A stretch of DNA of 64,000 nucleotides, taken from positions 1 through 64,000 of the forward strand of contig JANXBS010000009.1 in NCBI GenBank assembly GCA_025060615.1, in the 5' to 3' direction. A model generated the notes under the pieces. It was not told the DNA's origin and searched no databases. It worked only from the letters and a program-made list of their open reading frames with translations. Position numbers and translations under genes: made by a program. Of this stretch, positions 3,291-41,752 are shown piece after piece. This stretch comes from Anaerolineae bacterium. GTDB taxonomy: Bacteria; Chloroflexota; Anaerolineae; DUEN01. Every line of letters starts with the position of its first letter. The stretch's first letter is position 1.

Positions 3291-4301
3291 TCAGGCTTTC
3301 ACGTATCCGTTTTCTTGAAACCACCTCACTGCCTTCTCCAGGCCCATCTCCACCGGCGTAGGGGTGAACCCCAGCTCCTCGACAGCCTTAGAGCAATCGA
3401 AAAAGCGGAACTCTCTGGCCGCCTGGACTGCCTCGACGGTGATCCAAGGTGCTCTCCCCAAAAGCCTTCCCACAAAGACCTCGCTAAGATATCCCATCGC
3501 CAGGGCGAAAAGAAATGGGATGCGAATGCGGGGCGGCCTGATCCCGGTCAGCCGGCCCAGCATCTCCAGGACCGCCTGGAAGGTGAGGTTTTCGTTCCCC
3601 AAGATGTATCTCTCCCCCACCTTGCCCTTCTCCAAGGCGAGAAAATGGCCTCGGGCCACGTCTTCCACATTCACCAGGTTGAGCCCGGTATCCACATAGG
3701 CCGGTATACGGCGATTCAGGAACGAGAGGATCAACCTGCCAGTAGGCGTAGGCTTCCTATCACAAGGACCGATAGTGGCAGTCGGGTTGACTACAACTAC
3801 AGGCAGCCCTTTTTGAGCCATCTCCAGGGCGACCTTTTCTGCCAGGAACTTGGAACGTTTGTAGTGGTTCGTGAGCTCCTCCGGCCGAGCGATGATGCTT
3901 TCCCGGCCCAGCCCCGTTTTCCGGTCAATTCCGATGGTGGACTCGGTGCTGGTATAGACAACCTTTTGAATCCTTTTCCGCGAGGCAGCCTCAAGGAGGT
4001 TGGCTGTGCCTTTCACGTTGACCTCATACATCACCTCCGGCCGGGGAACCCAGAAGCTGTAAAGCGCTGCTGTGTGAAAAAGGACCTCGCAACCCTCTAA
4101 GGCTTTTTCCAAAGTCGCTTGGTCTCTCAAGTCGCCTAGGGCCAACTCCACATCCAACCCTTCGAGGCTGCGGCGGTCGCTTCCCTCCCTCACTAAGGCT
4201 CTTACCTTAAACCCTTGTCGCAATAGCTCTCGAACCACATGGGCGCCGATGAACCCTGTCGCCCCGGTTACCAGCGCCTTCGGCCCATTACCTCGGCTCA
4301 T
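3291..4301 (-). CDS. hpnA: Hopanoid-associated sugar epimerase HpnA
   Basis: This is an extended short-chain dehydrogenase/epimerase of 336 residues. The N-terminal Rossmann motif GATGFIG is at residues 13-19, the catalytic serine region is VVYTSTEST and the YxxxK pair is HYKRSK. Sequence style and position between hpnG and shc match HpnA, a hopanoid cluster member thought to act on the side-chain sugar. The start chosen is the second ATG (4301), which has GAGGGA just upstream; an ATG four codons earlier is possible. The start lies inside the end of hpnG, so the two are translationally coupled. Confidence 0.88.
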   Translation of the reverse strand: MSRGNGPKALVTGATGFIGAHVVRELLRQGFKVRALVREGSDRRSLEGLDVELALGDLRDQATLEKALEGCEVLFHTAALYSFWVPRPEVMYEVNVKGTANLLEAASRKRIQKVVYTSTESTIGIDRKTGLGRESIIARPEELTNHYKRSKFLAEKVALEMAQKGLPVVVVNPTATIGPCDRKPTPTGRLILSFLNRRIPAYVDTGLNLVNVEDVARGHFLALEKGKVGERYILGNENLTFQAVLEMLGRLTGIRPPRIRIPFLFALAMGYLSEVFVGRLLGRAPWITVEAVQAAREFRFFDCSKAVEELGFTPTPVEMGLEKAVRWFQENGYVKA

Positions 4302-5040
4302 CGAATCCCTCAAGGTATGAGTTCAGGAACAGTTGCAGGCTCTTTCTTGCCCTCCAAGAGCCCATAATGAGGCCTGGCAAGGCCAGCATTTCCAAAGGAT
4401 GAGAGGCGAAGTGGAGGGCAGCTTGCCCGATTCGCCAATCCCCTCGCACACCAACGAGGCGCTCCAATCGAGGCAGCCGCTCCTCTAAAGCATCGGAGAT
4501 GAATCGGACGGCCAGAAAGGGGATCCCCCGGGATATGGCGGCTTCTGCCTCCCAGAAGCTCTCCATGTCCACCACCTGGACCCCATACTTTTCCGCTAGG
4601 GCGAGCTTCTCCTGCGGGTCGGAGATAAAGCGTGAGACCGTCAACCCTCGGCCCCAAGTGAAGGGGATCCTGGCTCGAGCTAAAGCTTGGGCCGCCAACA
4701 GGCAAAGGCGATCATCGCTGGGGAGCTCACCTTTCTCCGGCTGCAAAACGCTCTGGCAGATCACAGCCTCTCCCTTCCTCAGGCCTCTAGCCGTCCCCCC
4801 CCCAAAGCCGCAAGAGAGCAGGGAGTGGAGCGGATATGCCTGGGCCAAGGAGTCGACCGCCTCCCTGCTCTGCCTACCCATCCCAGTCACCGCTACCGCC
4901 ACCTCTTTTCCCCATAACCTCCCCACCATCACCCAGCCTCCTGGCAGCTTCAGCCGGCTCTCGATCTCCATGTCTCTAGCAGCCCATTGGATTTCCTGCG
5001 GCAAAGCCGCCAGGATGCCTATCCTTTGCGGATGAGCCAT
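4288..5040 (-). CDS. hpnG: Hopanoid-associated nucleoside phosphorylase HpnG
   Basis: This 250-residue protein belongs to the purine nucleoside phosphorylase / MTA-SAH nucleosidase fold. It shows the early ILAALPQEI strand, the glycine-rich CGFGGG segment and VDMESFWEAEA, the usual Met-Glu-Ser substrate-binding motif. In hopanoid clusters HpnG removes adenine from adenosylhopane to give ribosylhopane (known for the family). The partner HpnH radical SAM, which makes adenosylhopane, is not in this window. The start at 5040 was chosen over an upstream in-frame ATG (5142) because homology begins there and GGTGAG precedes it. It is the first gene of the operon. Confidence 0.85.
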   Translation of the reverse strand: MAHPQRIGILAALPQEIQWAARDMEIESRLKLPGGWVMVGRLWGKEVAVAVTGMGRQSREAVDSLAQAYPLHSLLSCGFGGGTARGLRKGEAVICQSVLQPEKGELPSDDRLCLLAAQALARARIPFTWGRGLTVSRFISDPQEKLALAEKYGVQVVDMESFWEAEAAISRGIPFLAVRFISDALEERLPRLERLVGVRGDWRIGQAALHFASHPLEMLALPGLIMGSWRARKSLQLFLNSYLEGFDEPR

Positions 5041-15227: not shown

Positions 15228-15617
15228 ATGAATATCCTTTTGTGGCTTCTGCAAATCTTGCTAGGCGTCTACTTCTTCTTCACTGGGATCGTCCATTTTA
15301 TCGTGCCACCTGGCCTACCCGCGCCGATGGCTTGGATGTATGAGCTCTCGCCCGGCTTGCACTACCTCAGCGGCACCGCCGAAATCTTAGCGGGGCTTGG
15401 ACTTATCTTGCCTGGTCTGACTCGCATTCAGACCCGTCTGACGCCTCTAGCGGCATTTGGGTTGGTGCTTGTCATGTTGGGAGCGGCAATCTGGCACCTC
15501 CTGCGCAATGAGTTTTCCAACATCGCTATGAACCTGATCTTGGCCGGGCTGTCAGGCTTCGTGGCCTATGGTCGGTGGCGACTGAGCCCACTCAAGGCCA
15601 AGGGGGCTCAGCCCTGA
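15228..15617 (+). CDS. DoxX-like small membrane protein
   Basis: This 129-residue protein has four predicted membrane helices (about 3-24, 45-62, 68-90 and 97-115). LLGVYFFFTGIVHF at the start and GTAEILAGLGLILPG in helix 2 are DoxX/DoxD-type signatures. AGGAGG lies nine bases before the ATG. It precedes the CcdA-TlpA-glutaredoxin genes by 126 bp, and DoxX proteins are often linked with thiol or sulfur redox, so a shared role is plausible. The exact function is unknown. Confidence 0.72.
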   Translation: MNILLWLLQILLGVYFFFTGIVHFIVPPGLPAPMAWMYELSPGLHYLSGTAEILAGLGLILPGLTRIQTRLTPLAAFGLVLVMLGAAIWHLLRNEFSNIAMNLILAGLSGFVAYGRWRLSPLKAKGAQP

Positions 15618-15743: not shown

Positions 15744-16658
15744 GTGCTACGCCAAAATAGCACTTTTCTGCACGCCGCTGCCTTCGTTTTAGGGTTTGGG
15801 CTGATCTTTACGCTATTGGGGGCCTCCGTTGGCCTAGTCGGATATGTGATCTACGGATTTCTCCCGCTCATCCAACAGATCGGTGGCGTGTTGTTGATGA
15901 TCTTTGGGTTGATTACTATAGGGTTGTTTGGCTGGCTACGAGAGCTGGTGCAGCGCTCACCTGCCTGGCCCGCAAGCGAGTGGCGGCGAATGCTGGTTCG
16001 CGCGCTGAACTTTTTTATTTATCTCATGTACACGGAACGACGGGCGCAGATGGAGCTCAAGAGCCGGGGATATGTGGCCTCCTTTTTGACGGGGGTCTTC
16101 TTCTCCGCTGGCTGGATCCCCTGCGTAGGACCGATCCTGGCAGCGATCTTGCTATTGGCCTCACAACAGCAGACCGTCGCTCAGGGCACTGCCCTACTCG
16201 CGGTCTATTCGCTAGGGCTGGGGATCCCCTTCTTGATCACCGGTGCTGCCTTCAGCCCAGTGACCAGCGCGCTCCGGCGGTTGAACCGCTACGCTAGAGT
16301 CGTCTCACTGATCAGCGGTGTCTTCCTTATCTTAGTAGGATGGCTGCTGTTCACCGATCAACTTCGCATTCTCTCGGGCGCCTTCCTGAGCCGGTTCGGC
16401 TTGGGGCTGGTGGCCTTCGAGAGCAGCCTAATCGTTGACCAAGCTGACCTCTCGTTCCCCCTGGCTTTTCTAGCCGGCTTGCTCTCGTTCTTCTCGCCGT
16501 GTGTCCTGCCCCTGATCCCGGGCTATCTCGGATACTTGAGCGGAGCCTCGCTGGCCGGGATGGCATCTATAGCCCAAGATAAACAGCCTGCAGCGGCTGA
16601 ACAGCCTATCGCCGTCAGGAATGAGCCGCTCCGCCGTCAGCCTAGAGGTGAACTATGA
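15744..16658 (+). CDS. ccdA: CcdA-type thiol-disulfide transporter with permuted helix order
   Basis: CcdA moves electrons from cytoplasmic thioredoxin across the membrane. This 304-residue version has six helices and both active cysteines, but the order is changed. Residues 6-60 match normal helices 2-3 (TFLHAAAFVLGFGLIFTLLG). Residues 108-205 match helices 4-6 with C127 in GWIPCVGP. Normal helix 1, with C253 in FFSPCVLPLIPGYLGYLSG, sits at 236-267. The C-terminal tail resembles the usual helix 1-2 linker. No SPCVLP segment is encoded upstream in any forward frame. The GTG start has GGGGAG nearby. It overlaps tlpA as ATGA. Confidence 0.85.
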   Translation: MLRQNSTFLHAAAFVLGFGLIFTLLGASVGLVGYVIYGFLPLIQQIGGVLLMIFGLITIGLFGWLRELVQRSPAWPASEWRRMLVRALNFFIYLMYTERRAQMELKSRGYVASFLTGVFFSAGWIPCVGPILAAILLLASQQQTVAQGTALLAVYSLGLGIPFLITGAAFSPVTSALRRLNRYARVVSLISGVFLILVGWLLFTDQLRILSGAFLSRFGLGLVAFESSLIVDQADLSFPLAFLAGLLSFFSPCVLPLIPGYLGYLSGASLAGMASIAQDKQPAAAEQPIAVRNEPLRRQPRGEL

Positions 16659-17287
16659 GCCCTCTCAATCACTCGTCCTCGTCACCTTCCCTTACTCCGG
16701 AGATGGCTGCTTCGTCGCGGGTCACAGCCCTCTGGGCGCGCGTGGCGGTCGGCTTGCTAATGCTGTCGACGATAGCCGTGGCGGCGCGATGGCTCTGGCC
16801 GGCTGTGTCGCCGGCGCGTCCAGCCCACTCTTCGTTCGCCGAGGGGCATGCTTTACCTACGTCCGCCCCGCCGGTGGCTGGGCAGCCGGCTCCCGATTTC
16901 GAGATGGCTTACCCTGATGGCCGGCGTATGCGTCTAAGTGACTGGCGCGGCCAGCCCGTACTGATCAATTTCTGGGCGACCTGGTGCGGCCCTTGTCGAG
17001 TGGAAATACCGGAGCTCATCAAGGCTTATGAGGCTCACCGCCAACATGGGCTCGTGATCCTGGCGGTGAACGTGCAGGAGTCCGCTCACCAAGTGCAGCC
17101 GTTTGTAGACGAGTTGGGCCTGAGCTTTCCTGTGGTCTTGGACCTAGATGGGGAGATCTCCCGTCAGTACCAGGTTCGCAGCTTGCCTAGCAGCATCTTC
17201 GTCGGCCGGGACGGCCTGATCGCGGCTCGTTGGGTGGGTATTCTCTCGCCCGAACAGCTGTGGAACCATCTGGAGCGCATTCTTTGA
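16655..17287 (+). CDS. TlpA/ResA-like membrane-anchored thioredoxin
   Basis: A 210-residue protein with one N-terminal membrane anchor (about 23-50), a proline/alanine linker and a periplasm-side (extracytoplasmic) thioredoxin domain. The active site is WCGPC with C111 and C114, and LPSSIFVGRDG holds the cis-proline. The family reduces disulfides in apocytochrome c or other exported proteins and receives electrons from CcdA. It overlaps the ccdA stop by 4 bp, so they are coupled, which supports a working electron path despite the permuted CcdA. Confidence 0.9.
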   Translation: MSPLNHSSSSPSLTPEMAASSRVTALWARVAVGLLMLSTIAVAARWLWPAVSPARPAHSSFAEGHALPTSAPPVAGQPAPDFEMAYPDGRRMRLSDWRGQPVLINFWATWCGPCRVEIPELIKAYEAHRQHGLVILAVNVQESAHQVQPFVDELGLSFPVVLDLDGEISRQYQVRSLPSSIFVGRDGLIAARWVGILSPEQLWNHLERIL

Positions 17288-17288
17288 G

Positions 17289-17537
17289 ATGATCCAAGTC
17301 ACGCTGTACGGCACGGCGGATTGCCCGCTCTGCGATGAGGCGCTGGAGGCGCTAGAGGAACTAGCGGCGGAATACGGTTTCGGGATTCAGAAGGTGGACA
17401 TCACGCGAGATGAACAGCTATATGTCCGGTTCCATGAGGTGATCCCGGTGATTGACGTAGAGGGGACACTCCTGCTCGCCCCCATTGACTCGCGTGAGCT
17501 GCGACAGGTAATAGAGGCAGCGCTGGGATGGATATGA
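17289..17537 (+). CDS. Glutaredoxin-like protein (DUF836 type)
   Basis: An 82-residue thioredoxin-fold protein with a CPLC motif (C12, C15) directly after the first strand, and VIPVIDVEG containing the cis-proline. It begins one base after the tlpA stop. The lack of a signal peptide places it in the cytoplasm, where it might feed or drain the CcdA system; that role is inferred. Confidence 0.82.
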   Translation: MIQVTLYGTADCPLCDEALEALEELAAEYGFGIQKVDITRDEQLYVRFHEVIPVIDVEGTLLLAPIDSRELRQVIEAALGWI

Positions 17538-18235
17538 GCACGCCATGGGCCGCCAGCCCGAGCCGCTGGGTGGCCTATATAAACCGGCTGGTGTATAGGA
17601 TCGCCCGTCACTGGCTGGCCCTCTGTAATGGGATCGTGGCGTTATTTCTCGCGTTGCCGATAGCTGCTCCGCTTCTGCTGGCTGCCGGCGCAACGACGCC
17701 AGCGCAATTGATCTATCTCGTCTACTTGCCCGTCTGTCACCAGCTCCCGGAGCGCTCGTACTTCCTCTTGGGAGAGAAACCAGTGTATACCCCCGAGGAG
17801 CTGGAAGCGCGTGGGATGCCGGCCGGGCTTTCGCCGTTTCAGCGCCGCGGCTTTCGCGGCAATGAGGTGACCGGATACAAGGTGGCCTTCTGCGAGCGAG
17901 ACGTAGCGATCTACGGCTCGATTCTGTTGGCAGGCTTAGCTTATGGCGCGCTGCGACGTCGGGGGCGCCCGCGAGGGCTGCCACTGAAGATATACGTGTT
18001 GTTTTTAGTCCCTTTGGGCTTGGATGGGCTAACCCAGTTAGTCGGGCTGCGCGAGAGCAACTGGTGGCTCCGCACCATCACCGGCGCGCTGTTCGGAGGA
18101 GCCTCTGTATGGCTGGCCTACCCGCTGATAGACGAGGCGATGGAAGATACAGCTCGCCAGGTGGAAGCGCGCATCAACCCTGGCCAATTGGACAAAACCC
18201 AGGACCCCAGATATTATAATGAGCATTGTACTTAA
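17528..18235 (+). CDS. DUF2085 membrane protein
   Basis: The 235-residue protein has about four membrane helices. Family-typical motifs are VCHQLPERSYFL (about 68-79) and KVAFCERDVAIYGS (about 118-131), followed by GLTQLVGLRESNWWLR. It overlaps the glutaredoxin gene by 10 bp. DUF2085 has no known biochemical function. Each of the two motifs holds a cysteine, and its fixed place in a thiol-redox operon makes it a candidate redox partner or substrate. That link is inference. Confidence 0.8.
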   Translation: MDMSTPWAASPSRWVAYINRLVYRIARHWLALCNGIVALFLALPIAAPLLLAAGATTPAQLIYLVYLPVCHQLPERSYFLLGEKPVYTPEELEARGMPAGLSPFQRRGFRGNEVTGYKVAFCERDVAIYGSILLAGLAYGALRRRGRPRGLPLKIYVLFLVPLGLDGLTQLVGLRESNWWLRTITGALFGGASVWLAYPLIDEAMEDTARQVEARINPGQLDKTQDPRYYNEHCT

Positions 18236-38251: not shown

Positions 38252-40135
38252 ATGGTTCGCGCGATCTCCGAAGAGCTTTTGGCCAAACTGGACACCCTGC
38301 CGGGCCGGACGGGCGTCTATCTGATGAAAGATGCCAGGGGCAGCGTGATCTATGTGGGCAAAGCGGTTAATCTGCGCAGCCGCGTCCGCTCGTACTTTCA
38401 GACGTCCGCCGACCACGGCCCGCGCACGCGCCGTTTGGTCGAGGACGTCGCCGACTTGGAGTGGATCGTCACCGACACGGAGCTGGAAGCGCTCATCCTG
38501 GAGAACGAGCTAATCAAGCGCCACCAGCCGCGCTATAATGTCCGCCTCAAGGACGACAAGAACTATCCCTATATCAAAATCCACTGGCAGGATGATTTCC
38601 CCAAGGTCTCGATCGTGCGCCGTATGGCCCACGATGGCGCCCGCTATTATGGGCCTTTTACCTCGTCGCAGGCCGTGCGACAGACCCTGGATGCGCTGCG
38701 ACGAGTGTTCCCGTATCTCGACTGCGATCGCAAGATCACCGGTGAGGACGAGCGCCCCTGTCTGTACTTCCATATCAAGCGCTGTGCCGGCCCCTGCATC
38801 GGCGCCATCAGCCGCGAGGAGTACCGCTCAATCATTCAGGGGCTGTGTGATTTCTTGGAAGGCAAGACCGAGCGCGTATTGGCCGATCTCCAGGCCAAAA
38901 TGCAGCAGGCCGCCGACGAATGGCAATTCGAGCGAGCCGCCCTTTATCGGGATCAGATCCGGGCTGCCGAGCAGATCGTTGAGCGACAAAAGGTGGTCTC
39001 TGGCCGCGATGAGGACGAGGATGTTATCGCCTTCGCCTATGATCCACGCCAGGACGAGGCCTGCGTGCAGGTCTTTCTGGTTCGGCATGGCCGATTGATC
39101 GGGCGCGAGACGTTCGTGTTGGATGGTGTGGCGGCCGAGGAGAATGGCGAGTTGCTGTCGGCATTCCTCAAGCAGTTTTACGACGAGGCAGCCTACGTGC
39201 CCCCGCGCATCCTGCTCCCTCAGGAACTGGACGAGCGACAGATCATTGAGCAGTGGCTGCGCTCTAAGCGCGGTGCCCAGGTGATGTTAAAGGTGCCCCG
39301 GCGAGGCGCCAAGCGCCAGCTCGTGGAGATGGCCTTGGAGAACGCCCGAGAGACATTACAGGCGCTGCAGGCGCAATGGCAGGCCGACACCCACCGCCAA
39401 ACTCAAGCCCTGACTGAATTGCAGGAGTATCTACACCTGCCGTCGCCGCCGTTACGTATCGAGTGCTTCGATATCTCTACGCTGCAGGGCACGAACACTG
39501 TGGGAAGCATGGTGGTGTTTGCCAAGGGTGTCCCTCTCAAGTCGGACTATCGGCGGTTCAATGTGCGCTCGGTGGGGCAGGCCGGGCAGCCGGATGATTA
39601 CGCGGCGATGCGCGAGGTATTGCGTCGTCGCTTCCGCCGGGCCGTGGAGGCAGCCGAGAATCCTGACCCTGGCCAGAAGGCGCGCCGGCAGGACGCCGTA
39701 TGGTCGCTGCTGCCTGACCTGGTAATTGTGGATGGCGGCAAGGGACAGCTCAACGTAGCGCTGGAGGTGCTGGACGAGTATGGGCTGCGCGAGGTGGTAC
39801 CGGTGGTGGGGCTGGCCAAACAACATGAGGAGATTTTCCTCCCTGGCCAGCCGGACCCAGTGGTGCTGCCGCGCGGCTCGGAGGCCCTTCATCTGATGCA
39901 ACGCATCCGGGATGAAGCCCATCGCTTTGCCATTACCCATCAGCGCGCACGCCGCCAGAAATCCGCGCTCGTCTCAATATTGGACGAGATCCCTGGTATC
40001 GGCCCTCGCCGGCGGCAGGCTTTACTTAAACGCTTCGGTTCTCTAGAGGCTATCCGCCAGGCCTCCTTGGAAGAGTTGGCCGCTGTGCCAGGCATGACCC
40101 GAGCCGCCGCCGAACGGCTCAAAGCTAGCCTCTAG
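38252..40135 (+). CDS. uvrC: Excinuclease ABC subunit C
   Basis: A 627-residue repair nuclease that cuts on both sides of lesions with UvrB. The GIY-YIG domain is at the start (TGVYLMKDARGSVIYVGKA), the UvrB-binding helices near 205-240 (AAYDEWQ-like; WQFERAALYRDQI), an RNase H-like C-terminal nuclease with ECFDIS and IVDGGKGQLN, and tandem helix-hairpin-helix at the end (IPGIGPRRRQALLKRFGSLEAI). The start is set by the promoter, not by a ribosome site. Confidence 0.95.
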   Translation: MVRAISEELLAKLDTLPGRTGVYLMKDARGSVIYVGKAVNLRSRVRSYFQTSADHGPRTRRLVEDVADLEWIVTDTELEALILENELIKRHQPRYNVRLKDDKNYPYIKIHWQDDFPKVSIVRRMAHDGARYYGPFTSSQAVRQTLDALRRVFPYLDCDRKITGEDERPCLYFHIKRCAGPCIGAISREEYRSIIQGLCDFLEGKTERVLADLQAKMQQAADEWQFERAALYRDQIRAAEQIVERQKVVSGRDEDEDVIAFAYDPRQDEACVQVFLVRHGRLIGRETFVLDGVAAEENGELLSAFLKQFYDEAAYVPPRILLPQELDERQIIEQWLRSKRGAQVMLKVPRRGAKRQLVEMALENARETLQALQAQWQADTHRQTQALTELQEYLHLPSPPLRIECFDISTLQGTNTVGSMVVFAKGVPLKSDYRRFNVRSVGQAGQPDDYAAMREVLRRRFRRAVEAAENPDPGQKARRQDAVWSLLPDLVIVDGGKGQLNVALEVLDEYGLREVVPVVGLAKQHEEIFLPGQPDPVVLPRGSEALHLMQRIRDEAHRFAITHQRARRQKSALVSILDEIPGIGPRRRQALLKRFGSLEAIRQASLEELAAVPGMTRAAAERLKASL

Positions 40136-40206
40136 TCCAAGCGCGGCTCCGACGCGCATCATGGAGGTCTGCTCTTTCAGCATACCGTGGTCTACTCATG
40201 TTGTGC

Positions 40207-40236
40207 TTGTGCAACTACACAAGCTCGGGCTATAAT
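40207..40236 (+). promoter_or_regulatory. Promoter of the DUF6800-like gene
   Basis: TTGTGC (40207-40212) and TATAAT (40231-40236), 18-bp spacer, about 30 bp before the start. Confidence 0.55.
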
Positions 40237-40266
40237 CTGAATGCCATCGCACTGAGGGAGGAGGTG

Positions 40267-40437
40267 ATGTCTGTGACTGTTGAGCGCGATCGCGAAGTGC
40301 GCCGTCGTCGGCACCGCCGAAAGAAACTGCGTCTCTTGCGCGCTCGGCTGATGCAGGCCAAGACCGCGCGCGAGCGGCAGCGTATCATCGAGAAGATCCG
40401 GCGCATCTCCCCGAGAGCGCCCATCCCAGAGGTGTAG
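40267..40437 (+). CDS. Small basic DUF6800-like protein
   Basis: A 56-residue, arginine/lysine-rich protein (VERDREVRRRRHRRKKLR, then EKIRRISP). The pattern of a charged helix followed by KIRRISP matches DUF6800 small proteins known mainly from Planctomycetes. GGGAGGAGGTG precedes the ATG, which supports real translation. Its charge suggests nucleic-acid or ribosome binding, but this is not shown. Confidence 0.65.
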   Translation: MSVTVERDREVRRRRHRRKKLRLLRARLMQAKTARERQRIIEKIRRISPRAPIPEV

Positions 40438-40476
40438 TGCAGCTCACACCAGACTTGGCGGCTATCATCATCTAGG

Positions 40477-40542
40477 AGGGTGTCTGAAAAGCCTCGACCG
40501 GCCCTTTTTGTTTTTGCTCGGATGGTTTTTACGACACCCTCG
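40477..40542. repeat. 66-bp MITE-like inverted-repeat element
   Basis: The ends GAGGGTGTC (40477-40485) and GACACCCTC (40534-40542) pair perfectly, and similarity goes on inward (15 of 18 matches, including AAAA and CC). It looks like the two ends of a small IS without a core. No target duplication is evident. Confidence 0.5.
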
Positions 40543-40561
40543 CAAAGACAAGGAGCTCGAA

Positions 40562-41752
40562 ATGCCTCAGAGCCATGTGGCTTATGTCAGCGATTTTCTG
40601 CTAAGCGTTCGCGCCATCGCCCTCGCTGGGCAGGATTTACAGGATGCGCTGGCACAGGGCGATGCTGAAGCTCAGGATTTCGCCATCGCGGAGTTGGAAC
40701 AGGCCTACGCGCGCTACGATCAGGCCAGCGAGAGTTATCGGACGTTTATGTTGGGCCGGCTGGGCACCACCCGCTCCGCTGTCCAAGCCGAGCGGGTCAG
40801 TGTGGACACCCTCGGCAGCGTGGTAGCCGACCTTCAGGTAGCCCATGTGCTGTTAGCGGCCGGGCAATCTGTTGGCGAGATAGAAGAGCCGGCCATGCGC
40901 ACCCGAGCAGTGGGCCCCGCGCCGATGCTGGCCGACGCACTTCGATCACTGGATGAAACCGCGCGGGGCCTGCGATGGGCGCTAGCCATGCCGATCTCAC
41001 GGCCTGTCGCGGCCACGCGCAGCCTTTTTGGCCCTCCTCAGCCGGTGGTCATCGAACCGGTACAATCGCCATCGGTTGAACAGGCGCTAAGCACTTTTCG
41101 CAGCATCGCCATGGACACACTGGAGCATGTGGTGGCCGGCGTACACAAGGCGATCCGATCCTGCATCGAGGCGATCTCGAGCTTGGATGAGAAGGCCATC
41201 TTGAGCGCCCTGGAGATGTTGGTAGGGGAGATCGGGGCCTTACCTGAGATAGGCCGTCTGATCCGGTTAGGAGTTGACCGCCTAAAGAAAGCCATCACCG
41301 CCATCATCACTTTCCTCGGCGATGAGGTCATGGACGCGCTCAAGGCCAAATTGAAGGAAATGGTGCAACAGTGGCTGAGCGCGCAGCAGTTGGACGCTGA
41401 GCTGCGCAAGGCATTGAACATCCAGGCCACGCAAAAGCTCATCGAGGAGGTCAGCGCCAGGCCCGGCCTGATAGGAGATCAGCTCGACCAAGCCAGCACT
41501 GCTATCAAAGTGCTGCGCGTTCGCTTCGATGGGCATGTGGAGACGATCGCGCAAGCTTCGAAAACAGTGGCAGTGGTCGGGGGCTTGCTCGCCACGTCGG
41601 GGCTGGGCGTGAAGGCCGTGCTACTCGCCGCGGTAGCCTATCTAGCGATCATCGCCTGGGCTGTGGGGATGGGGATAGACTACGCTGATTCTGGCCGCAT
41701 CCTCAACCGGGTGCAGGGGATCGGGATGATCGCCCAGGAGCTGATCCGGTAA
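40562..41752 (+). CDS. Unknown helical protein with C-terminal membrane segment
   Basis: Not recognised. It is 396 residues, almost wholly alpha-helical by composition, with many hydrophobic-heptad stretches (residues 10-110 and 185-330). A hydrophobic segment near 350-385 (TVAVVGGLLATSGLGVKAVLLAAVAYLAIIAW, in two parts) may be a membrane anchor. The start at 40562 follows AAGGAGCTCGAA. It is followed by a strong hairpin. No catalytic motif could be seen. Confidence 0.6.
   Translation: MPQSHVAYVSDFLLSVRAIALAGQDLQDALAQGDAEAQDFAIAELEQAYARYDQASESYRTFMLGRLGTTRSAVQAERVSVDTLGSVVADLQVAHVLLAAGQSVGEIEEPAMRTRAVGPAPMLADALRSLDETARGLRWALAMPISRPVAATRSLFGPPQPVVIEPVQSPSVEQALSTFRSIAMDTLEHVVAGVHKAIRSCIEAISSLDEKAILSALEMLVGEIGALPEIGRLIRLGVDRLKKAITAIITFLGDEVMDALKAKLKEMVQQWLSAQQLDAELRKALNIQATQKLIEEVSARPGLIGDQLDQASTAIKVLRVRFDGHVETIAQASKTVAVVGGLLATSGLGVKAVLLAAVAYLAIIAWAVGMGIDYADSGRILNRVQGIGMIAQELIR

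Follow-up and report, generated by a model that had tools for sequence, protein, structure and literature searches.

The open reading frame at 15744-16658 of the window, by which we mean the whole 64,000-nucleotide stretch of Chloroflexota DNA analysed here, is by its sequence a circularly permuted CcdA in which helix 1 has moved to the end of the chain. This order is widespread in the Chloroflexota. On the trees made here the permuted CcdAs are not one clade; they are polyphyletic. We believe the protein is very probably a working CcdA-type electron carrier whose chain runs 2-3-4-5-6-1, and that the order has changed more than once within the Chloroflexota.

The permuted gene and its neighbours

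The features on which the argument turns are listed below. Residue numbers are those of the window protein, and 5vkv is the structure of CcdA from Thermus thermophilus.

15744..16658, + strand: permuted ccdA ORF, 304 aa, GTG start, helices 2-3-4-5-6-1 (translation, phmmer, HMM order, rotation scan)
15768..15929, + strand: helix 2-3 segment, residues 9-62, in CcdA normally at about 41-93 (phmmer, HMM order)
16065..16361, + strand: helix 4-5-6 segment, residues 108-206 (phmmer)
16122..16124, + strand: codon of C127, the helix 4 redox cysteine in GWIPCVGP (invariant in 53 aligned permuted proteins, L173 excluded)
16362..16448, + strand: new linker between helices 6 and 1, residues 207-235, similar to a canonical C-tail joined to an N-tail (lengths, best z)
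16449..16547, + strand: relocated helix 1, residues 236-268 (phmmer; dN 0.04-0.07 against the three nearest relatives)
16500..16502, + strand: codon of C253, the helix 1 redox cysteine in SPCVLP (cysteine in 62/62 non-redundant permuted ORFs)
16548..16655, + strand: C-terminal tail, counterpart of the beginning of the canonical helix 1-2 linker (K+R 5 vs D+E 4 over residues 266-304)
16655..17287, + strand: tlpA/resA-like thiol-disulfide oxidoreductase (AhpC-TSA 1.5e-29, Redoxin 6e-24)
17289..17537, + strand: glutaredoxin-like protein (DUF836), same cluster (Glrx-like 3.4e-17)
17528..18235, + strand: DUF2085 membrane protein, overlapping the glutaredoxin-like gene (DUF2085 3.6e-19)

An earlier note on this DNA had claimed that the half of the protein with C127 comes first and the helix-1 segment with C253 last. 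The translation agrees: the helix-1 motif FFSPCVLPLIPGYLGYLSG (also SPCVLPLIPGY), which holds C253, lies near the C-terminus and helix 2 begins near the N-terminus. The claim that no SPCVLP is encoded upstream holds as well. In locus L001 (14244-18155 of the window, six frames, ORFs of at least 25 aa, E < 0.05) the helix-1 HMM matches only at the C-terminal end of the ccdA ORF. The note had also described tlpA as coupled downstream, and the ccdA stop codon does share 4 bases with the ATG of the gene at 16655-17287.

The order is clearest from comparison with canonical proteins. A phmmer search of the PDB returned 5vkv as its sole match (E 1.6e-25), in three blocks that stand in permuted order: residues 236-268 match chain positions 3-35, residues 9-61 match 41-93, and residues 111-215 match 111-211. 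The N-terminus thus begins where helix 2 begins, as had been proposed. We also rotated the protein in 2-residue steps against 12 canonical CcdAs. The mean global score is 283 for the native form and 495 for the best rotation (offset 230), with a median of 259 over all rotations. Each of four canonical controls has its best score without rotation, and rotations within its tails come close to that score. Moving residues 236-304 to the front, which the note had suggested as a check, improves the alignment for 12 of 12 canonical pairs. One rotation restores homology over the whole length, as in naturally circularly permuted proteins.

Homology places the protein in the DsbD_TM family (Pfam PF02683). 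It scores 55.2 bits in three stretches, above the cut-off of 27.1, and both cysteines (SPC and PC.G) are present. A TlpA/ResA-type thioredoxin neighbour of the kind looked for beside a CcdA is found at 16655-17287 (AhpC-TSA/Redoxin). The helices of CcdA should run from 1 to 6, and here they run from 2 to 6 and then 1, so we class the protein as a permuted variant rather than an ordinary member. The Pfam score does not discriminate between the two orders, since the rotated protein scores 56.8 bits. Profile scores of this kind conceal the permutation, which is a warning for profile-based annotation.

The permuted ccdA is the single DsbD_TM match in its source genome. The draft is 97.78% complete, so a second CcdA could be absent from the assembly. 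The best NCBIfam model for the gene at 16655-17287 is ResA (2e-37, 128.8 bits, below the cut-off of 170). Directly upstream of ccdA, on the same strand, 15228-15617 encodes a DoxX-like membrane protein. Elsewhere in the source genome (G000), contig C22 has a weak ResB-like match at about 39766-40905 (L217, L218); it falls below cut-off and may mark a partner in cytochrome c maturation (System II).

The order is widespread in the Chloroflexota

The permuted order had already turned up in an initial search, which covered 60 genomes. From permuted proteins we then made one HMM each for the segments helix 1, helices 2-3 and helices 4-6, and searched every ORF of loci L001-L215 with them. They find 90 permuted ORFs (2-3/4-6/1), 120 canonical ORFs, 4 of which have an additional weak overlapping match, and 9 ORFs with only some of the blocks. 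The 90 include the window's own, and 2 of them are cut by the end of a contig. Judged on the last 200 residues, 85 are distinct; five pairs are identical over that length, partly from one record fetched twice. The loci were mostly chosen for similarity to the window protein, so the permuted and canonical counts are not frequencies. The same order in this many ORFs does mean that the permutation is not chance.

The note had asked whether other Chloroflexota have this order, and they do: it spans 13 coded families. Among the 121 Chloroflexota-side genomes with a classified ORF, the fetched loci are permuted only in 62, canonical only in 54 and of both kinds in 5. Permuted loci from titled records are Chloroflexota in 16 of 17 cases. 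The remaining one, L073, is from an uncultured bacterium and groups on the trees with permuted proteins of the window's class. Homologs with an additional helix 1 at the N-terminus, which the note had named as a finding that would speak against it, are absent from L001-L215 at the HMM threshold used, where no single ORF has helix 1 at both ends. No tandem ccdA-ccdA fusion or seven-helix intermediate was found among these fetched loci.

The window comes from a draft genome, and nothing further favours the idea that the order is an assembly or sequencing artefact. Against it stand the 90 ORFs with the same order, which include members from the single-contig genomes G013, G029 and G168 and from the 5.06 Mb chromosome OY282381.1. 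We give the idea practically no weight, and misassembly in particular is ruled out by recurrence in many assemblies.

Two other phyla were sampled. The phylum of L136 (a Bacillus record) is represented by 199 genomes, 85 of them with a match at 1e-14, and one of these, G454, has a permuted ORF (L219 / L224) beside two canonical copies (L222, L223). The best 12 BLAST matches of L219 among the fetched loci are all permuted proteins from the Chloroflexota. Its neighbour in this genome, which was drawn as Bacillota, is a 977-aa ORF that may be of a Chloroflexota type. Given these matches and this neighbour, a misbinned contig is as likely as horizontal transfer. A spanning match in G539 and an over-extended match in G467 both proved canonical. 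In the phylum of L069 (a Geobacter-named record; 198 genomes, 61 with a match at 1e-22) there is no permuted protein among the matches listed. The only one of those that reaches well into helix 1 (to residue 249) is G335, which is L069 and canonical.

How many times did the order change?

The first tree was built from helices 2-6 of 134 ORFs (152 columns), leaving out the duplicates L058, L062 and L065 and also L094, whose blocks lie in separate ORFs. It needs 7 order changes, at least 4 of them forced by starred branches, and a single permuted clade is rejected on this set (AU p=0.0024). The second tree has 127 non-redundant Chloroflexota rows (62 permuted and 65 canonical, L073 included) and 8 outgroup rows over 152 columns, and 37 of its 132 inner branches are open. 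Rows more than 85% alike were removed, which took the Chloroflexota side from 170 to 127, and 31 of the 39 other rows were dropped. The divergent second CcdA-like ORF of L061 and the incomplete-block loci L094, L166, L181, L190, L195 and L209 were left out. This tree needs 8 order changes, at least 6 of them forced by starred (well-supported) branches. A single permuted clade is rejected here too (AU p=3.2e-6), and leaving out the f65 pair gives 1.6e-5.

Membership of the full permuted set was fixed from helix order beforehand; the groups P1-P7 were named after seeing the tree. P1 is f1 and f38 (the window's), P2 is f19 and f31, P3 is f15 and f17 (with a long helix 3-4 stretch), P4 is 18 rows around f11, f22, f27 and f34, P5 and P6 are f16 with L106, and f4, and P7 is f65. 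Several unions of these groups are not rejected as one clade: P1+P2 (AU p=0.17), P1+P2+P3 (0.126), P4+P5+P6 (0.096) and P5+P6 (0.38). Since one clade is rejected and these unions are allowed, two or more order changes are firm, and the number of origins itself is uncertain. Our best estimate is six to eight order changes. The canonical order is likely the ancestor, since the other phyla seen have the normal order, G454 aside.

It could be argued instead that a functional permuted CcdA arose once and that the present mixture comes from reversals to the normal order and horizontal transfer. There is something to be said for this. Several sub-groupings of permuted proteins pass as single clades in the AU tests, gains and reversals are indistinguishable on the tree, and 5 of the 121 genomes hold both orders among the fetched loci, so exchange between copies is possible. 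We still find a single origin unlikely. One clade is rejected on two data sets and also without the f65 pair, so several reversals would be required. Canonical relatives also share tail strings with the permuted linkers, and some share the long helix 3-4 stretch of the f15/f17 group.

That stretch is hydrophobic and 109-126 residues long in the permuted f15/f17 proteins and in some canonical ones, against a median of 20 elsewhere. It is found in permuted L011, L013, L014, L153, L156-L158, L160, L161 and L163 and in canonical L029, L125, L206 and L208, and L013 and L029 match within it (BLASTP 2e-10). On the second tree L206 groups with these permuted proteins, and L029 and L208 lie elsewhere with open forks.

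The junction and the origin of the permutation

The lengths around the junction are informative. The canonical C-tail and N-tail have medians of 17 and 5, against 27 for the permuted helix 6-1 linker (65 canonical and 61 permuted proteins, with the ATG nearest upstream of the block taken as the start of the N-tail). Between helices 1 and 2 the canonical linker has a median of 15, and the permuted N-tail and C-tail have medians of 15 and 10. Several permuted linkers are also like the tails of near canonical relatives in the residues themselves. The window linker has LRILSGAFLSRFG where canonical L205 has LSMISAYLSRYFG, permuted L154 has LNILFSATPEWL where canonical L213 has LNGYFIRMTPEWL, and permuted L014 has LAQFGTFINVD where canonical L029 has LAQYGTFLDID. 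We scored 23 junctions, hand-picked from the 62 permuted proteins with none from P6 or P7, against 300 shuffles, and took the best z of 3-5 canonical references for each. The values run from 1.1 to 6.4 and are weak (1.1-1.6) for L012, L024 and L059. The window's own linker (residues 207-235) has its best z of 4.5, among four canonical references, against L201.

Linkers that resemble canonical tails in several lineages suggest that the permuted order arose by tandem duplication and tail-to-head fusion. The ccdA gene would have been duplicated in tandem, and read-through would have joined the tail of the first copy to the head of the second. A new start would have appeared in the helix 1-2 linker of the first copy, and the second copy would have been lost after its helix 1. 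The alternative is that the helix-1 segment of DNA was moved directly to the end of the gene, with no duplication and loss. The lack of any duplicated intermediate among loci L001-L215 would fit a direct move. Against it, the junction resembles the old C-tail plus the old N-tail in length and, in part of those tested, in sequence. We regard a direct move as improbable and prefer duplication and fusion.

The strongest form of this preferred reading is that the same one-helix permutation arose at least six times from different canonical lineages by tandem tail-to-head fusion, with function kept and with a fold and elevator indifferent to the end at which helix 1 is joined. We offer it tentatively; it is a serious possibility, and we stop a little short of calling it probable.

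Topology, structure model and elevator

The earlier note had reasoned that the topology allows helix 1 to stand at the end, and the charges agree with the positive-inside rule, as a prediction with segment limits set by hand. With these limits, loop 3-4 has 9 K+R, loop 5-6 has 4, the C-tail has 5 and the N-terminus 1; on the other side loop 6-1 has 2, and loops 2-3 and 4-5 have none. The predicted topology puts loops 3-4 and 5-6 and the C-tail in the cytoplasm, the N-terminus weakly so, and loops 2-3, 4-5 and 6-1 outside. Compared with canonical CcdA, the break in the chain would lie in the cytoplasmic loop between helices 1 and 2, and a new periplasmic loop, about 29 residues long, would connect helix 6 to helix 1. 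Both chain termini would then be cytoplasmic.

An AlphaFold2 model made with 53 permuted sequences has a pLDDT of 81.7 and a pTM of 0.72, with helix 1 broken at 250-256, FSPCVLP. Among solved structures it matches 5vkv best (Z 6.5, rmsd 5.3, 187 residues; next Z 4.6). The match lays model residues 4-230 on chain positions 36-224, which takes in helices 2-6 only and leaves helix 1 outside. On the tool's own scale a Z of 6.5 is commonplace among helical bundles, and the Foldseek E is 0.04. An earlier model made with 16 sequences was weaker (pLDDT 76.3; 5vkv Z 6.0; Foldseek E 0.014). No other fold family stood out in the structure searches of the models, an absence that is not evidence.

A review describes an elevator model in which TM1 and TM4 may shift inside a scaffold (PMC7329351); the other helices would make up this frame. 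In the permuted protein the tether of helix 1 would be on the periplasmic side, with the cytoplasmic end left free, which is the reverse of normal.

Conservation and function

The helix-1 cysteine is present in all non-redundant ORFs, 62/62 permuted and 65/65 canonical. The helix-4 motif PC.[GS] is present in 61/62 and 64/65; the misses are L173 and the canonical L043, which has PCIT there. Over the whole gene the window sequence differs from its three nearest relatives with dN 0.19-0.23 and dS 1.6-1.9 (near saturation), and the six pairs of these four sequences give dN 0.15-0.23 and dS of at least 0.9 (near saturation). In the relocated helix 1, dN is 0.04-0.07 between the window and the three relatives and 0.01-0.07 across the six pairs. 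The relocated helix is under purifying selection.

A few loci are broken or odd. The permuted gene of L195 changes frame within the helix 6-1 linker, close to a G run (minus strand, about 1734-2530 in the reverse-complement count), probably a homopolymer error. L181 has its permuted ccdA spread over two frames. L173 (1494 onward) is a permuted ORF that lacks an in-frame helix-4 stretch and its cysteine, either a real deletion or an assembly fault; it was kept in the second tree and excluded from the structure alignment. In L094 (about 3992-4730) a canonical ccdA has an in-frame stop in the helix 1-2 linker that leaves helix 1 as a separate small ORF, a sequencing error or a split gene. L195 and L094 may both be sequencing errors, and neither is used as evidence. 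L061 carries, about 3 kb downstream of its permuted ORF, another CcdA-like ORF (7864 onward); this second one is very divergent, has the canonical order and runs off the end of the locus.

Broken members such as L195, L181 and L173 could be read as signs of a decaying pseudogene. We reject this, and consider its chance negligible. The blocks are uninterrupted in 90 ORFs, and in six of six pairs dN is far smaller than dS across the gene, and smaller again in helix 1.

CcdA passes electrons from the cytoplasm across the membrane to a periplasmic partner. The six helices of the permuted protein would pack as in ordinary CcdA. With that packing, C253 of helix 1 and C127 of helix 4 would form a disulfide/dithiol pair, which would take electrons from the cytoplasm and hand them to the periplasmic TlpA/ResA-like partner.

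A thioredoxin-motif ORF starts at most 120 bases downstream in 23/62 permuted and 20/65 canonical loci, counts in which 1 permuted and 4 canonical loci had less than 500 bases downstream. These figures show no link between the permutation and a downstream thioredoxin gene. The rates are similar, so the permuted order does not accompany a new neighbourhood.

The relocated helix could be kept in a protein with a task other than the usual electron transfer of CcdA, such as a paralog that serves another partner. The 5 of 121 genomes that hold a canonical copy as well, among the fetched loci, lend this some appeal. But the permuted protein is the sole DsbD_TM match in its own genome, both cysteines are conserved, and a thioredoxin-motif ORF follows it about as often as it follows canonical genes. 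We think another function quite improbable and continue to read the protein as a CcdA-type electron carrier.

Comparison with known systems

The closest known system is CcdA itself, as in T. thermophilus 5vkv. The permuted protein is homologous to it in all three blocks, has both redox cysteines and has a similar gene neighbourhood. The differences are the order of the chain, 2-3-4-5-6-1 against 1-2-3-4-5-6, and the tethering of helix 1 at its other end. The termini differ too: those of the permuted protein are predicted to be cytoplasmic, whereas both termini of canonical CcdA are periplasmic. The transmembrane domain of DsbD belongs to the same Pfam family. DsbD carries fused periplasmic domains, and the NCBIfam DsbD model gives the permuted CcdA 18.4 bits against a cut-off of 330.

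The occurrence of both orders among close homologs in one phylum makes several questions testable: whether the order in which helices are inserted affects folding, whether it makes a difference to a redox elevator at which end its moving helix is held, and by what route permuted membrane proteins come about. To our knowledge natural circular permutation of helical membrane proteins has rarely been reported. Our search of the literature on CcdA or DsbD with permutation or Chloroflexi found no report, which is weak evidence since subscription papers were mostly outside the search.

The precedent for a permuted helical membrane redox protein is the pair DsbB and VKOR. According to a 2015 paper, these four-helix membrane thiol-redox proteins are related by circular permutation, a route by duplication and deletion is proposed as it is here, and the authors call the case the first in helical membrane proteins (PMC4555120). 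DsbB and VKOR are distant, functionally diverged families linked by structure, whereas the CcdAs compared here are close homologs in one family, whose order has switched more than once and in which rotation takes the window protein from a mean score of 283 to 495 against 12 canonical relatives. Permutation as such already has its precedent in DsbB and VKOR; the repeated switching of CcdA order is the new and surprising part. With close homologs in one phylum and both orders in neighbouring clades, nature seems to have repeated the experiment.
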